From Granulicella mallensis (GTDB lineage Bacteria > Acidobacteriota > Terriglobia > Terriglobales > Acidobacteriaceae), in assembly GCF_014203225.1 (NCBI RefSeq), contig NZ_JACHIO010000006.1, forward strand, positions 1 through 64,000: DNA of 64,000 nt, read 5' to 3'. The stretch's first letter is position 1. Each line of letters starts with the position of its first letter. The translations under genes were made by a program, and so were the position numbers. The notes beneath the pieces were generated by a model, which saw only the letters and a list, made by a program, of their open reading frames with translations, was not told the DNA's origin and ran no database searches. Below are positions 6,002 through 64,000 of this stretch, in pieces.

Positions 6002-6337
6002 GGGTGCCCCATTCTCGACGCGCGTTTTTTGCGCGGCAGGGTGGGGTATAGACGCTAAGCGAATCCCACAAATCTTCGAAGCGCGCTCTGCGTCAGGGGT
6101 ATAGACGCTAAGCGAATCCCACAAATCTTCGAAGCGCGCTCTGCGTCAGGGGTATGGACGCTAAGCGAATCCCACAAATCTTCGAAGCGCGCTCTGCGTC
6201 AGGGGTATCGTGCGAAAGCACGACCGCTTTCGGCTTGTAGCAGATATGGTGCCTGTATTGGAGAGTGCGGTCGTTTGCTACCGCAAACGATACCCCACCC
6301 TGCCGCGCAAAAAACGCGCGTCGAGGATGGGGCACCC
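6002..6337. repeat. Inverted-repeat element carrying tandem repeats
   Basis: Arms at 6002-6048 and 6291-6337 are 47 bp long and complementary with a single mismatch; the left arm starts gggtgccccattctcgacgc. The interior holds three 53-bp tandem units and a smaller palindromic part (gcaccgaccgcttt-like against tgcggtcgtttgct). No transposase or open frame with coding character is seen. The element fills nearly the whole gap between the RDD gene and the convergent cytochrome gene, so as RNA it could serve as a bidirectional terminator. Confidence 0.85.
6043..6201. repeat. Three tandem copies of a 53-bp unit
   Basis: Units lie at 6043-6095, 6096-6148 and 6149-6201. They are identical except for one base (ggggtata in the first two, ggggtatg in the third). 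Each unit contains gacgctaagcgaatcccaca and ends in gctctgcgtca. A fourth start (ggggtat) at 6202 diverges at once. There are no spacers between the units, so this is a tandem duplication rather than a CRISPR array. Confidence 0.95.
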
Positions 6338-12478: not shown

Positions 12479-12911
12479 CGTCATCCTGAGCGAAGCAACT
12501 CGCGTACTTTGCGAGTTGCGCAGCCGAAGGACCCCGAGGGATTTTATCTTGCCTCGGCTGTTGGGACCTTTTCCAGCACGAACGTCCGGGCTCGAGCGCC
12601 TGAGGTAGAAAAGGTGCGAAGCGTGTGGGTAGGATTGCAACCCTCGGGGTCCTTCGACTTCGCGTCCCCAAAAGCCGGGACGCTTCGCTCAGGATGACGA
12701 TTCTGTGGGGAATGAACAAAAGGCTATGGACCCCGAGGGAGTTTCTCTCGTCTATGGTGTTGGGACCTTTTCCAGCACGAACGTCCAGGCTCGAACGCCT
12801 GAGGTAGAAAAGGTGCGAAGCGTGTGGGTAGGATTGCAACCCTCGGGGTCCTTCGACTGCGCGTCCCTAAAAGCCGGGACGCTTCGCTCAGGATGACGAT
12901 TCTGTGGGGGG
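12479..12911. repeat. Family B inverted repeat with tandem duplication
   Basis: A first palindromic element spans 12479-12699, from gtcatcctgagcgaagc to its reverse complement cgcttcgctcaggatgac. The right-hand ~155 bases (12558-12712) are repeated almost identically at 12758-12911, a 200-bp period direct repeat differing at only a few positions. Both copies contain ccttttccagcacgaacgtc and cctcggggtccttcgact. Other family B members are at 22131, 35230 and 36975. The rest of the 590-bp gap up to mfd holds half of a different element (ccctgggctggaatatgccg, about 12948-12985) that occurs in full near 33239. Confidence 0.9.
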
Positions 12912-27809: not shown

Positions 27810-27844
27810 GAAACAGAGTGTAGAGAGTAGAGGATAGAGCGCAA

Positions 27845-28225
27845 GTGAACAGCGATTCCAATAAGATGCTTCGTCGGGTCCCTGGCCTCTCTATCCTCTG
27901 CGCTCTGCCCTTTCTTCTCTGCCTCGCAGGCTGTGACTCTACGCCTCCACCGATACCGCTCACCCAGCTCAACCCGCAGCAGGCCCGGGGTCACCAGGTC
28001 TATCAGGCTCACTGCGCGCAGTGCCACTACGATCGAGTCTCCGACCCGCTGCATGGGCCGCCGCTTCGTGGCGTCTTCAAGAAGCAGTACCTGCCGAGCG
28101 GCGCACCGGCCAACGATGAGCGTGTAACCGCGACCGTTCTGCACGGACGCAACCTGATGCCCGCGCAGCCCAACACCGACCCCCAGGACCTCGACGACGT
28201 GCTGGCCTATCTGCATACGCTGTAA
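27845..28225 (+). CDS. Mono-haem cytochrome c lipoprotein
   Basis: The product has 126 residues. A lipoprotein-type signal ends LLCLAGC. One haem motif, CAQCH (HCAQCHYD), lies in the first half; the methionine in GRNLMPAQPN is the probable distal ligand, and the ending LDDVLAYLHTL is the usual class I C-terminal helix. It is a periplasmic electron carrier tethered to the membrane. I chose GTG 27845, preceded by gagg; an ATG at 27866 would shorten the protein by seven residues. It lies between the SurA-like gene and a small membrane protein that begins 10 bases after its stop. Confidence 0.85.
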   Translation: MNSDSNKMLRRVPGLSILCALPFLLCLAGCDSTPPPIPLTQLNPQQARGHQVYQAHCAQCHYDRVSDPLHGPPLRGVFKKQYLPSGAPANDERVTATVLHGRNLMPAQPNTDPQDLDDVLAYLHTL

Positions 28226-59590: not shown

Positions 59591-59740
59591 CTTTTCCGTT
59601 GCCTCCGAACTTACAGTAAATCAGGTCGAAGTATAGCGATTTGCGTAGTGGATTTGAGGCATGGAATTTGAAGGGGAACCTTTTTGAATCCTCCCTGCGC
59701 CCGGCAAGGCGTCTGGGAGGAGGTAAAAGTGAGAAGTCAC

Positions 59741-59773
59741 AAGTGGTAAGTGGCAAGGGAGCACTTACCACTT
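59741..59773 (-). other. Stem-loop between pheT and zapB-like gene
   Basis: aagtggtaagtg (59741-59752) and cacttaccactt (59762-59773) pair perfectly over 12 bp around a 9-base loop. In the minus-strand transcript it comes 10 bases after the pheT stop and is followed by cttttac, so it may attenuate or process the pheT-zapB mRNA. Confidence 0.5.
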
Positions 59774-59782
59774 GCCACTGCA

Positions 59783-61903
59783 CTATGCGCGTTGTACTCC
59801 GCCCAAACCAACCAGCGCGCTCACCGTCTTCTCCGACCAGCCCCCAAGATCTTCCTCGGTCAGCGTGCGTTCGTTCGACTGGAATACCACTCGCACCAGG
59901 GCCGAGTAGTGTCCGGCGGCAACCGCCTTGCCCTTGGCGTCTCGGAAGATCTCAACCGGCGCGGTGCGCTGCGTCTCGGAGATGCCCAGACCGCGCAAGG
60001 CTTCCGCAATCTGCTCCCAGCGCACGGCATCCGGGAAGACAAACGAGAAGTCCCGCTCGACAGCCTGGTAGCGCGAAATCTCCCGCGAGACCGGCTGGCG
60101 CAGCGTACGGAGCAACAGGAGTTCCGCTCGGACCTCGGCAAATACGCAGGTCTGACGCAGCTTGCGGCGCTGCGACTCAGCCGTGCTCAGTTCTCCGAAG
60201 ACCGCGACGACTTCGCCCTCCAGCAGAGCTCGCGCTCCGCGGCCCGGCTCGATCCATGCCGGAAGCGATTCGGCGTCGAACCGAACAGATCCTGCAAACT
60301 TCGCGAGCAGACGCTCGAGGGCGCCCTTCATCTCGTAGAACAACGCATCCTGCGCGCTGTACAAAGAAGTGGCAACAGCCGCTCCGGTCGCACCCAGCGC
60401 GAGTCCTGTGTGTTCCTTCACTTCGGCGGTCGAGCCGGTAAAGACCGTGCCCATCTCGAACAAGCGCACGTCCGTTACGTCGCGATGCAGGTTGTGAGCC
60501 AGCATCGTCGCCATGCCCGGCACCAGCGACGGCCGCAGCATTCCGGCCTCTTCGCTGAGCGGATTGCCCATGGCCACCGCACCGGTCTTCGCGTCCCCGA
60601 ACGTCGTGGCCTCTTCAGCGGAGGTGAACGTGCTGGAGATCGCCTCGCTGAAGCCCAGCGAGCGCAGGGTCTCGCGAATTGTCCGCTCCTGCTCCGCGTG
60701 CGGCTGTTCGACGACCGTACCGGCAAACGCGGGCAGCGTATCGGCGAATTTGTTGTAGCCGTAGACGCGCGCCACCTCTTCGATGAGGTCGATCTCGCGT
60801 TCGAGGTCGAGCCGCCAGCTCGGCAGTTGAACGCCGTACTCGCCTGCGACCGCACCCGTCGGCGTAAGCACGCAGCCCAAGGCTCCGAGGTATTGCTCGA
60901 CGACGTTTTCACTTAGCCCCGAGGTGTTCTCACCACCGCTCCACGCCGCATCTTCGAGCGTCGTGCCCAGGTGCCGCTGCACCTCGCTGACGCGAAGCAC
61001 AATCGGAGCGCGCTCGGCGGTCTTTGCCTGCAGCTCCGGGACGATCACATCCACAAGCGGGCCAACGACCTCGCCGCCTGCCTGCTCGACGACCAGGCGT
61101 GTAACCAGATGGTTTCCTAACGGCGCAGCATTGAAGTCCGCTCCGCGCTCAAAGCGATGGCTCGCGTCGGTATGAAGTCCATGGCGGCGCGAACTCGCGC
61201 GAATCGTCGCCGGATCGAACCAGGCAGCCTCGACGAGGATGTTCTTCGTGGTCTCGGTTACGCGCGAGTCCCATCCACCCATCACACCTGCCAGTCCCAG
61301 CGCCTTCTTTTCGTCGGCAACCACGAGATCATCCGTCACCAGCGTGCGCTCGGTGCCGTCGAGCAGCCGCAGCTTCTCGCCAGCCTTCGCACGGCGGACG
61401 ACGATGCCGCCCTCAAGGGTGTCGAGATCGAACACGTGCGTGGGCTGTCCCATGGCGAGCCAGCCGAAGTTCGTCACATCGACCGGTGCGGAGATCGGCT
61501 TCTGTCCCAGCGCGGCGAAATACTCGGCGACCAGACCCTTTGCAGGGCCAACCGTAACACCACGAATCACCCGAGCGGTAAAGCGTCCGCACAGGTCGCG
61601 GGCTTCGATACGCACCGGGAAGCCTTCACCGGCAACAGCTTCAACGACCGGAGCAGCAATGCTTTCGCTCAAAGGAACAAACGGCACGTCATAGATCGCT
61701 GCGGCCTCGCGAGCGACACCGTAGTGATTCATCGCATCGACACGATTGGTCGTGATGTCCATCTCGTAGCGCGCACCGCCGCACGAGGCTTCGAACTCAC
61801 CTTCAACCGCAATACCGCGTAGCGTAAGGTCTTCGGCGAGTTGCCGATCATCAACCGGAAGCTCGGGAAGATACGACCGCAACCACTTCGTCAGGATATT
61901 CAT
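59783..61903 (-). CDS. pheT: Phenylalanyl-tRNA synthetase beta subunit, short form
   Basis: The product has 706 residues, about 90-100 shorter than the E. coli type. The sequence goes from the start (MNILTKWLRSYLPELPVDDR) almost directly into the B3/B4 editing region (MDITTNRVDAMNHYGVAREA), so the usual N-terminal tRNA-binding OB-fold insertion is absent. The B5 domain, catalytic-like core (EVARVYGYNKFADTLP) and C-terminal ferredoxin-like anticodon-binding domain (RDFSFVFPDAVRWEQIAEAL) are present. No clear Shine-Dalgarno sequence precedes the start; an 8-bp repeat array lies there instead, so translation may be coupled to the upstream gene. Confidence 0.93.
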   Translation of the reverse strand: MNILTKWLRSYLPELPVDDRQLAEDLTLRGIAVEGEFEASCGGARYEMDITTNRVDAMNHYGVAREAAAIYDVPFVPLSESIAAPVVEAVAGEGFPVRIEARDLCGRFTARVIRGVTVGPAKGLVAEYFAALGQKPISAPVDVTNFGWLAMGQPTHVFDLDTLEGGIVVRRAKAGEKLRLLDGTERTLVTDDLVVADEKKALGLAGVMGGWDSRVTETTKNILVEAAWFDPATIRASSRRHGLHTDASHRFERGADFNAAPLGNHLVTRLVVEQAGGEVVGPLVDVIVPELQAKTAERAPIVLRVSEVQRHLGTTLEDAAWSGGENTSGLSENVVEQYLGALGCVLTPTGAVAGEYGVQLPSWRLDLEREIDLIEEVARVYGYNKFADTLPAFAGTVVEQPHAEQERTIRETLRSLGFSEAISSTFTSAEEATTFGDAKTGAVAMGNPLSEEAGMLRPSLVPGMATMLAHNLHRDVTDVRLFEMGTVFTGSTAEVKEHTGLALGATGAAVATSLYSAQDALFYEMKGALERLLAKFAGSVRFDAESLPAWIEPGRGARALLEGEVVAVFGELSTAESQRRKLRQTCVFAEVRAELLLLRTLRQPVSREISRYQAVERDFSFVFPDAVRWEQIAEALRGLGISETQRTAPVEIFRDAKGKAVAAGHYSALVRVVFQSNERTLTEEDLGGWSEKTVSALVGLGGVQRA

Positions 61904-61910
61904 AAATAGC

Positions 61911-61942
61911 GAGTCAGCGAGTCAGCAAGTCAGCAAGTCAGC
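61911..61942 (-). repeat. 8-bp repeat array, pheT-proximal side
   Basis: There are four tandem units, gagtcagc twice then aagtcagc twice, between pheT and the four-helix gene. In the minus strand they read GCTGACTT/GCTGACTC and contain a TGA in every unit, which places stops in all three frames. The stop codon of the four-helix gene (61938-61940) falls inside the array. Confidence 0.95.
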
Positions 61943-62360
61943 TGTTTGCGGCTGCGCCGTTTTCTTCCTCCAGTGTTTTCAGTAGCCCGTTGATAATGCG
62001 TGCCACTTCATTGCAGTCTGCAAGCAGGGCGGCGGCCACTTCCCGAACACAAAATTTCAAATCGATTGCGAGTTCCAACTGTGTCTCTAATTCAAACAAG
62101 GACCCACGCGCCTGCGCGAGGAAGAGTCGAAAACTGCGATCTGTCAAACGCCCGTGGCCTTCCGCGATATTACTTGGCACTGAGACAGCAGCTCGTCTCA
62201 TCTGAGAGATGAGGCCGTATCGTTCAGAGTCCGGAAACACTGCGGTCAGCGTATAGACCTTCTTCGCGAGGGTCATAGCCTTCTGCCAGGTAATCAAGTC
62301 TCTGAAGTGCCGTGTCCTTCGCTGACTTGCTGACTCGCTGACTCGCTGACTCGCTCTCAA
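61938..62360 (-). CDS. Four-helix-bundle protein (23S rRNA intervening-protein type)
   Basis: The product has 140 residues. FRDLITWQKAMTLAKKVYTL, RAAVSVPSNIAEGHGR and LFELETQLELAIDL identify the S23/IVP four-helix family. This family was first found encoded in 23S rRNA intervening sequences and is related to the Avd accessory protein of diversity-generating retroelements; basic faces suggest nucleic-acid binding. The only usable start upstream of the conserved FRDLI is TTG 62360, overlapping the pheS stop (TTGA). The first 13 residues (ASQRVSESASQ) are therefore translated from an 8-bp repeat array. Gain or loss of one unit would shift the frame. It is inserted between pheS and pheT. Confidence 0.85.
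   Translation of the reverse strand: MRASQRVSESASQRRTRHFRDLITWQKAMTLAKKVYTLTAVFPDSERYGLISQMRRAAVSVPSNIAEGHGRLTDRSFRLFLAQARGSLFELETQLELAIDLKFCVREVAAALLADCNEVARIINGLLKTLEEENGAAANS
62321..62352 (-). repeat. 8-bp repeat array, pheS-proximal side
   Basis: Units read gctgactt once and gctgactc three times on the plus strand, the inverse of the array at 61911-61942. In the mRNA the two arrays can pair over 32 bp with one G-U, enclosing the whole four-helix gene. The array encodes the start of that gene. Confidence 0.95.
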
Positions 62361-63460
62361 GCGAACTGCTCCAAAAAGCGCATGTCTCCGGAGTACAGGA
62401 GACCGATGTCTGAGATGCCGTACTTCATCATGGCGATACGATCGACGCCCATGCCAAAGGCGAAGCCGCTGATGCGGCGCGTGTCATAGACCGGATCGCG
62501 GCCCAGTTCGATGCGCCGCTGGTTCACCGCCTCGAACACCGCAGGGTCGACCATGCCGCAGCCCAGCAGCTCGATCCAGCCGGAGTGCTTGCACTTGCGG
62601 CAGCCCTTGCCGCCGCAGAAGATGCACGAGATCTGCACGTCCGCGCTGGGTTCGGTGAACGGAAAGAACGACGGGAAGAAGCGCGTCTTGACCGCGGAGC
62701 CGAAGAAGGCCTTCATCGCGTGATCGAGCGTGCCCTTCAGGTCGCTGAAGGTGATGTTCGTATCCACGCACAGACCTTCGACCTGGTGGAAGACCGGCGA
62801 GTGCGTGGCGTCAGCGGCATCGTTGCGATGCACCTTGCCGGGAATGACCAGCCGCAGCGGCGGAGCCTGCTCCAGCATGGAGCGGATCTGTACCGGGGAG
62901 GTGTGCGTGCGCATCAGCAGACGCTCGCGCAGCGGTTTGCCCTCCTGCTCGGCGACGACCAGCGTGTCCTGTGTGTCGCGGGCCGGATGGTTCGGCGGAA
63001 AGTTCAGGCTCTCGAAGTTGTAGAAGTCGCTCTCGACCTCCGGCCCCAGGCCCACGGAGTAGCCCATGCGCTGGAAGACGCTGACAATCTCGGCCATCGT
63101 CCTGACCAGCGGATGCTCGACCCCGAGGCGCTGTGCACTGCCGGGCAGAGTGACGTCCAGCCCCGCTGCCGTCGGCTTTGGGTCCAACTTGAGAATAGCG
63201 AATGTAAGAGAGCCTTCGATCTGCTCCTTGAGCGCGTTGAAGCGCTGGCCGATGAGCTTCTTCGCCTCGGGTGGCGCGGCTTTGAGCCAGGCATCCGAGA
63301 TCGCCTTCAGGTGACCCTGCTTGCGGCCGAGCCATTCCAGACGGAACTGCTCGGCGTCGAAGCCGGGAGCGGCTACCGTGGCGTCAGCTTCGCTGCGAAC
63401 GGCGGCGAAGGCGGCATCCAGAGATGCCTCAGTGAAATCTGTAAGTTGCGGAATATTCAA
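62357..63460 (-). CDS. pheS: Phenylalanyl-tRNA synthetase alpha subunit
   Basis: PheS carries the class II catalytic site that charges tRNAPhe. The product has 367 residues (norm 330-350). The N-terminal coiled-coil helix (LDAAFAAVRSEADATV) is followed by motif 2 (IPGKVHRNDAADATHSPVFH) and the phenylalanine-pocket and motif 3 region (GFAFGMGVDRIAMMKYGI). A metal-like cysteine cluster (CIFCGGKGCRKC) in the region before motif 3 is an unusual decoration. Translation appears to start at a TTG encoding the MNIPQLTDF end. It is the first gene of the pheS - four-helix - pheT run. Confidence 0.95.
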   Translation of the reverse strand: MNIPQLTDFTEASLDAAFAAVRSEADATVAAPGFDAEQFRLEWLGRKQGHLKAISDAWLKAAPPEAKKLIGQRFNALKEQIEGSLTFAILKLDPKPTAAGLDVTLPGSAQRLGVEHPLVRTMAEIVSVFQRMGYSVGLGPEVESDFYNFESLNFPPNHPARDTQDTLVVAEQEGKPLRERLLMRTHTSPVQIRSMLEQAPPLRLVIPGKVHRNDAADATHSPVFHQVEGLCVDTNITFSDLKGTLDHAMKAFFGSAVKTRFFPSFFPFTEPSADVQISCIFCGGKGCRKCKHSGWIELLGCGMVDPAVFEAVNQRRIELGRDPVYDTRRISGFAFGMGVDRIAMMKYGISDIGLLYSGDMRFLEQFA

Positions 63461-63501
63461 CGGTTTTCCTTACGTCGAACTCTCATTCTAAACCGGCTCT
63501 A

Positions 63502-63918
63502 GGGCGTGCCATCAAAATTGCCGTTCGAGATAAAGATTGAGCCGTGCAAATCGCTTCTTGTGACTAGTTCCGGAAGGGCCCGGCTTCAGCCGGGCCGTAA
63601 GAATTGGGCATCGTCTTATTTCGATTCTGCCTAAGGCCGGAGCGAAGGCGAAGCCGGAGCGACTGAATTGCCTTCCTCATTAGCCGCCAAGAAGGTACAG
63701 GAATCACCAAGTATCCCGAGGCTGGGGCGGCTTGTTTCGCCACGACGAAAGAAAGCAATTCAGGTCGTTGCGGCTGCGCCTCCACTCCGGCCTTCGGCAG
63801 AAAGGTAGGCTCCTACGGAGCAGCCCTTGCGGCCTGGCTGAAGCCAGGCCCTTCCGGTTCGTGCTTCAACAAACTACTTGCACCGTTCGATTTCACGCCG
63901 AGGTCAGCGGGATGACAC
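63502..63918. repeat. Nested palindromic repeats upstream of pheS
   Basis: The outer ends gtgccatcaaaattgcc and the gatgacacacc side belong to the tcatcaaatt family. Inside, ctgcctaaggccggagcgaa (about 63626) faces ctccactccggccttcggca (about 63780), a diverged relative of the inverted repeat at 134-338. ggcccggcttcagccgggcc forms a further stem. No gene is seen in this 460-bp gap; the pheS promoter should be at its left end. Confidence 0.75.
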
Positions 63919-63921
63919 ACC

Positions 63922-64000
63922 TTACAGTGCCCACCAGATGACGGCGGCCATCAGCACGCCCAGCAGCAGGCTTCTCTTGTCCGTAATCGCAAAAACCACG
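63922..64000 (-). CDS. Partial membrane protein, 3' end only
   Basis: A minus-strand frame ends at TAA (63922-63924). The last 25 residues are visible and include ITDKRSLLLGVLMAAVIWWAL, which looks like a C-terminal transmembrane helix preceded by a charged loop. The remainder lies outside the window, so neither family nor function can be given. The conserved-looking ending and its position just beyond the repeat make it more likely real than chance. Confidence 0.45.
   Translation of the reverse strand, partial: VVFAITDKRSLLLGVLMAAVIWWAL

Follow-up and report, generated by a model that had tools for sequence, protein, structure and literature searches.

Between pheS and pheT of Granulicella mallensis lies a 453-bp insert, a four-helix-bundle gene enclosed by inverted arrays of an 8-bp word, which is probably an autonomous mobile element. 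It would consist of an S23/IVP protein and its cognate arms and would have gene-less derivatives that are not autonomous, a logic like that of RAYT and REPIN with no recognised transposase. The case is built on sequence comparison, according to which the arms are general to the gene family, their words follow the phylogeny of the protein, and three words of the insert's own genome are dispersed without the gene. The window, by which we mean the whole stretch of 64,000 nucleotides that was analysed, holds the following features.

62357..63460, minus strand: pheS, an open reading frame named by sequence, with its stop at 62357-62359.
62321..62355, minus strand: 5' arm (in the gene's sense), an 8-bp array GAGTCAGC/AAGTCAGC, which a single base pair separates from the pheS stop.
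61904..62356, minus strand: whole insert, 453 bp; in the relative G069, GCTTGAATATT stands at the same place, the pheS stop overlapping the pheT start.
61938..62360, minus strand: four-helix-bundle gene (PF05635/TIGR02436), 140 aa from a TTG, an open reading frame with a profile match.
61908..61942, minus strand: 3' arm, the array in inverted copy; 4 bp separate its end from pheT.
59783..61903, minus strand: pheT, an open reading frame with an ATG start at 61903, beside the 3' arm.
59727..59780, no strand assigned: gene-less hairpin AAGTGGT/AAGTGGC, the word of the armed four-helix gene at G000:C4:70343 (L003).
27816..27905, no strand assigned: gene-less hairpin AGAGTGT/AGAGGAT, the word of the armed four-helix gene at G000:C21:108451 (L004).

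A preliminary description of this DNA had seen inverted 8-bp arrays around an S23/IVP-type gene between pheS and pheT, and so they are. Each arm (61908-61942; 62321-62355) has a length of 35 nt; the two are 97% complementary and lie 378 nt apart, and a tandem-repeat finder counted 4.4 copies of the word at 61908-61942 and 4.6 at 62319-62355. Pairing between them can span 35 bp, where that description had given 32. In a predicted RNA fold of the insert (-191.2 kcal/mol) the arms are paired; 100 shuffles averaged -155.2 kcal/mol (z -5.9) and none equalled the native fold. The open reading frame scores 128.5 bits against PF05635 (cut-off 33.8) and 121.5 against TIGR02436 (cut-off 24), and the best solved structure for its protein, by sequence, is Xcc0516 (2GSC; E 7e-24). 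It reads uninterrupted across the 5' array, which thereby encodes the N-terminus of the protein, and its stop codon falls within the 3' array. Upstream of the four-helix domain the only in-frame ATG, GTG or TTG is a TTG overlapping the stop of pheS. Besides this gene the insert holds two antisense open reading frames, of 71 and 70 aa. The 140-aa frame matched no transposase in Pfam or NCBIfam, the Y1 HUH tyrosine type included, and positions 60000-64000 gave no Rfam match at gathering score.

That the insert is a true insertion, as had been supposed, is confirmed by its relatives, because pheS and pheT overlap directly, with nothing between them, in 10 of 25 pheT loci of the same genus (as TTGA, GTGA or ATGA). 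Two of the 25 have the element (the window's own and G061), and in the remaining 13 the end of pheS is either 312 to 1406 nt away or was not found in the locus. The TTG at which pheT starts in G069 is the start of the four-helix frame in the window, where pheT starts at the ATG by the 3' arm. On our reading the insertion would have parted two overlapping genes, the old pheT start passing to the four-helix gene and pheT taking up a new ATG. In some pheS-pheT copies TGA or ATGA flanks both sides; these letters are needed there as stop and start codons, under selection, and so cannot by themselves establish a target duplication.

An octamer element stands at the pheS-pheT junction in six genomes (our own, which is G000, and G061, G008, G019, G031 and G047), and a seventh, G078, carries one between fabD and a peptidase-like gene (names by eye). 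The relatives do not share one conserved four-helix gene without the repeats: the six pheS-pheT copies are octamer-armed, some of them weakly, and others are without the gene. Over the five genera that have the element at this site, the four-helix protein has diverged about as much as PheT, which makes old vertical inheritance with losses possible at pheS-pheT. In G006 (L138) what occupies this junction is a hairpin without a gene, built of another word, TTAGCNN.

The preliminary description had taken the insert for an IVS-like cassette in the pheS-pheT mRNA. Nothing special was found to tie it to that mRNA, for the same architecture is found wherever the gene family sits, and the word occurs gene-less elsewhere. 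We dropped the idea of a one-off cassette because the genome has five more PF05635 genes, three of them armed with different words: GGGATTA at rpoA-rplQ (L002), AAGTGRT after recG (L003) and AGAGNGT after an ABC permease (L004), the gene names being given by eye. The other two, L005 and L006, are without arms. Among the matches listed, 45 of 60 genomes of the same bacterial family have PF05635 matches, and we tested 94 of these loci, mainly the stronger ones listed, having left out two duplicates (L142, L216) and one locus with a short flank (L192) before counting. Their flanks match in inverted orientation at a score of at least 11 in 87 of the 94 and of at least 14 in 70. When loci were swapped the corresponding figures were 5.8% and 2%, in direct orientation they were 4 and 2 of the 94, and among 1157 ORF-bounded controls they were 44 (4%) and 1. 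Shuffles, swapped loci and ORF controls thus rule out a chance repeat. Seven of the 94 loci are unarmed, L005 and L006 among them.

The word has a period of 7 in 63 of 70 armed loci, 8 in five and 9 in two, so the window's 8-bp word belongs to a minority; the median array is 4.6 words long, and AG occurs in 52 of the 68 words, where chance would give 25.7. When a first group of loci from the genus and the loci of the weak class of PF05635 matches are included, a score of 11 is reached by 110 of 123 loci in the strong class and by 18 of 19 in the weak, so that we had to reject the notion that arms are limited to the strong class; the period is 8 in 9 of 17 weak-class loci. Among 15 further loci of the genus, mostly weaker or partial matches, just seven reach 11.

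Beyond this bacterial family we drew a broad set, 80 of at least 583 contig matches to a piece of Xcc0516 and 10 out of 29 matching plasmid records, 86 of which were testable after four of the 90 had been left out for short flanks. By their record titles these named genomes and plasmids come from Xanthomonadales, Betaproteobacteria, Bacteroidota, Nitrospirae, Planctomycetes, Gemmatimonadota, Firmicutes and cyanobacteria. Inverted matches reach 11 in 70 of the 86 (8% in the swapped control) and 14 in 54 (2%); of these 54, both arms have period 7 in 43 and period 8 in eight. Direct-orientation matches are frequent here (27 of 86 at 11 or more, 17 of 86 at 14 or more) because several loci bear both array directions on both sides. 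The 5' arm is G-skewed in 56 of 58 broad loci; in the home family the skew is not significant (43 vs 28). In Xanthomonas all three loci tested (L301-L303), with an Xcc0516-type gene, have GGGAATC arms, which is a published repeat (PMC4692102). Some loci, in Bacteroidota and elsewhere, have long flanking direct repeats; we considered these as target duplications and gave that up, as most of the 12 inspected proved to be heptamer arrays or composite hairpins on both sides. Five Bacteroidota loci (L312, L315, L316, L338 and L353) have same-direction arrays on two sides, or a composite hairpin on each, and not simple inverted arms. On two cyanobacterial plasmids, heptamer-armed four-helix genes sit between cas6 and cas4 (L383, L384), a neighbourhood already described for IVP genes (PMC3936711).

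The same word stands at a gene's arms and scattered in its genome, which suggests that each protein has a word of its own. Beforehand we had expected GAGTCAGC octamer arrays in G000, G061 and G078 and next to none in the rest of the genus. The matches came to 22, 21 and 12 in those three, to 6 in G076, 4 in G069 and 1 in G060, and to none in 22 of 28 genomes; G078 counts as an independent success, since the pattern came from G000 and G061 is its close kin. In the home-family sample there were 22 in G000, 8 in G047, 5 in G031 and 1 in G035. The expectation was largely borne out, as it is mainly where a genome has a GAGTCAGC-armed gene that GAGTCAGC arrays are found, though there are exceptions. 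In G076 and G069 every one of the seven four-helix loci listed was inspected and none is octamer-armed, and G019 and G008 have octamer-type arms and no exact array match. Over 87 genomes the association gives a Fisher p of 6.6e-5, a figure that ignores relatedness and counts as octamer-armed what was seen at inspected loci.

The protein tree tells a similar tale. One clade of nine (support 100/97) takes in all seven octamer proteins together with L087 and L219, whose arms differ. Across 126 loci the arm-word groups need 36 changes on the tree against 74.5 when shuffled, and none of 200 shuffles came as low. Arm similarity is at chance level below 50% protein identity and increases above 60%. 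Pairs of loci with no detectable shared neighbours, which we call non-syntenic, share arms in 1% of cases below 50% identity, in 19% at 60-70% (129 pairs) and in four of five above 70%; for syntenic pairs the figures are 47% at 60-70% and 71% above 70%, where 28 of 33 pairs are syntenic. As far as these comparisons go, related proteins tend to share words even at unrelated sites, and words differ between genes.

RAYT is a tyrosine transposase flanked by REP hairpins that serves REPINs. As in such systems, dispersed gene-less copies of the flanking repeat were found here. In its own genome the window word has 65 matches (up to 1 mismatch) at 20 sites and its reversed pattern none; the L003 word has 95 (up to 3 mismatches) at 15 sites, with one for the reversed pattern, and the L004 word 85 (up to 3 mismatches) at 33 sites, with none. 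These site counts include each armed gene's own. Both strands occur at 30 of the 68 sites, and the polarity is identical in all 30. GGGATTA, the L002 word, was tried as a dispersed word and not counted, its control being nearly as frequent (51 vs 39 matches). Dispersed tandem heptamers and convergent inverted pairs, the pattern of the GGGAATC repeats, were found for relatives and for two other words of the genome; the window's own word is 8 nt long.

One-sided octamer arrays lie in ten places that we judged to be coding, recG, leuS, mnmG, ligA and rsmE among them (names by eye), and all read as a SESASQQV-type peptide. That is the stop-free orientation, and so the bias in orientation may be selection. 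Linkers of this type, made by octamer arrays within genes, were seen at L007, L008, L009, L016, L021-L025, L028 and L151; by eye, a recG-like gene bears the array in both G000 (L008) and G031 (L151). In G061 an octamer array of about 20 units (L496; G061:C1:5666600-5667900) has its inverted partner a few hundred base pairs off, with an ordinary palindrome between.

An unbiased 400-kb sample of G000 held no period-7 or period-8 arrays, a result that tests little, as none of the 68 pattern sites lies within the sampled stretches. G025, with 11 genes of the family, had 29 period-7 arrays in 400 kb at the stricter threshold, at which there were none in samples of G017 (no genes), G032 (one), G047 (two) and G000, the G047 and G032 samples being of 200 kb; G017 had one AT-rich period-7 palindrome. 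At a looser threshold G025 gave 39 period-7 and 7 period-8 arrays. For 18 of the 46 the fit to the arms of G025's own genes (of the 11, 7 were used) exceeds that found in 95% or more of random sets; for the other 28 it does not.

Four sites in all (L004, leuS, rpoA-rplQ and recG) were compared between close relatives for turnover. The gene with AGAGNGT arms stands at the L004 site in G000; in its place G061 shows a GGGATTA hairpin without a gene, and G069 a short AGAGATN-type hairpin, by eye the word of G069's own gene L418. The leuS site has four octamers in G000, about 1.5 in G061 and a CCTGTTT heptamer array in G069. At rpoA-rplQ the gene is present in G000, G083 and G086 and absent in G061 and G069; the G086 copy (L483) has words that differ between its two sides (score 7). 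At the recG site G061 carries other genes. Among close relatives a site can thus be filled or empty, and at two of these sites, L004 and leuS, relatives carry a different word.

How might such an element work? We picture a protein ring of five four-helix bundles that would recognise its own array as single-stranded DNA or as RNA, with about one word bound per subunit. This recognition would spread both the protein's own cassette and gene-less copies, and the chemistry on DNA would be left to host enzymes. We infer array binding by a ring, and mobility by host enzymes, because the median array has 4.6 words, a relative has a five-fold ring and the words are rich in AG; the relative, from Xanthomonas, is described as a toroid of five four-helix bundles (PMC4990558). 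Over 36 diverse proteins 17 columns are invariant, Y19, E29, Q36, R54, E73 and Q77 among them, the invariance of columns 43-50 being partly built in because that stretch served as the scan pattern. Such columns are compatible with a binding or a catalytic face. Several observations speak against a mobile element. The insert has one recognised gene and no recognised enzyme of DNA movement, octamer arrays occur without a known octamer-armed gene in G076 (6), G069 (4), G060 (1) and G035 (1), and G019 and G008 show the reverse. The PheT-like divergence at pheS-pheT, the synteny of most pairs above 70% identity, the array-free samples of G047 and G032, the GGGATTA control, the unarmed loci and the frequent direct-orientation matches of the broad set weigh on the same side.

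The likeness to the intervening sequences (IVS) of 23S rRNA drawn in the preliminary description holds for the protein family and for the terminal inverted repeats, complementary arms predicted to form a long RNA stem. In Leptospira, Coxiella and others these sequences likewise enclose an S23p/IVP frame in pairing terminal repeats and are patchily distributed (PMC4990558). Our insert, unlike them, sits in a protein operon, between pheS and pheT and outside any rRNA gene; its family is found at many sites, its arms are arrays of 7-8-nt words, and its word is dispersed without the gene. One could suppose an mRNA counterpart of the IVS, whose main role would be in RNA, RNase III cutting the arm stem to make the insertion harmless and mobility being past or incidental. 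The shared protein family and terminal stem, with the fold at z -5.9, agree with this, as does the cutting in vitro by RNase III of a Coxiella IVS of the same family (PMC4990558). We think it unlikely, however, as one-sided arrays in coding genes and other intergenic arrays need no RNA processing, and a word common to a gene's arms and to distant sites is left unexplained.

Nor do we give much credence to an autoregulated RNA-binding protein, whose ring would bind the array in its own 5' UTR and for which the dispersed arrays would be an mRNA regulon and not traces of mobility. The constant polarity of the arms (all 30 sites that hold both strands, and the G-skewed 5' arm of 56 of 58 broad loci) would suit it, and so would the frequency of AG in the words (52 of 68 vs 25.7) and the 4.6-word median beside a five-fold ring. 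TRAP binds repeated NAG triplets, which words containing AG recall. Regulatory roles have indeed been proposed for TAACTGA arrays (PMC4679880). Against this stand the word switches at one site between close relatives and the arrays in coding genes, unlike a conserved regulon, and a home-family G-skew short of significance (43 vs 28). It is very improbable, to our minds, that the repeats are passive, made by polymerase slippage and hairpin repair with four-helix genes as preferred or tolerated passengers, even though in most genomes heptamers are described as the commonest among repeats of 5-11 nt, and slippage has been proposed for them (PMC4679880). That is hard to reconcile with arms at 87 of 94 loci in a single gene family, when 44 of 1157 ORFs have them, and with a word that follows the protein phylogeny and is dispersed elsewhere.

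The mobile element that we prefer can be set beside several known systems. It shares with RAYT and REP/REPIN the repeat-flanked gene, the dispersed gene-less inverted copies and a repeat family for each gene, and differs in that its PF05635 four-helix protein is not a tyrosine transposase and its arrays are not REP hairpins. In an IS/MITE pair the autonomous copy has a transposase; the 140-aa frame of the insert matches none. Diversity-generating retroelements (DGRs) offer a weak likeness, the bAvd model of their Avd protein scoring 24.9 bits (below its cut-off of 40), and PF05635 is described as common in DGR neighbourhoods and as resembling Avd (PMC10053308); a DGR has a reverse transcriptase, however, and 453 bp are too short for the gene of one. 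The GGGAATC arrays of Xanthomonas and the GGGGA(C/T)T arrays of Nostoc are heptamer arrays too, the former dispersed and often in convergent inverted pairs (70 and 75); they were published as G-quadruplex repeats, generally not with mobile elements (PMC4692102), and in the main text of that paper the terms 's23', 'four helix' and 'intervening' do not occur. The TAACTGA arrays of Beggiatoaceae are also heptamers, mostly intergenic, and their complement, TCAGTTA, resembles by eye the AGTT words here; unlike our inverted arms they form 169 direct sets and one inverted (PMC4679880), in a paper whose main text has no occurrence of 's23', 'four helix', 'ivp' or 'intervening'. Among the matches listed from open-access PMC texts we found no link between an S23/IVP gene and a tandem word, subscription papers and preprints being outside the scope of that search.

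What this offers is a role, open to testing, for proteins that are widespread and whose function is unknown, and for short tandem repeats an owner that they had lacked. If the protein does read its word, the family would amount to a natural collection of sequence-reading rings that differ in specificity; if the arrays move, they would do so by a transposition-like process without a known transposase, even inside housekeeping genes. One can go further, and we do so tentatively, regarding what follows as a real possibility that falls somewhat short of probable. S23/IVP proteins throughout bacteria may be ring readers of short tandem words, each encoded by a mobile element of a new kind, bounded by arrays of the protein's own word, which would sow arrays without a gene and replace those of other words at sites that recur; the IVS of rRNA would then be copies that landed in rRNA, and it would be the geometry of the ring, with its five subunits, that fixes the word period. 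Such a reading, if true, would join three topics that now stand as orphans, namely S23 proteins, rRNA IVS and the heptamer repeats of Xanthomonas, Nostoc and Beggiatoa.

The window has repeats of other kinds. A 53-bp unit is repeated 3.1 times at 6043-6208 with a 99% match and a 199-bp unit 1.9 times at 12529-12909 with a 93% match. Inverted repeats number 328 per Mb in the window; other stretches that were sampled have 30-175 per Mb.
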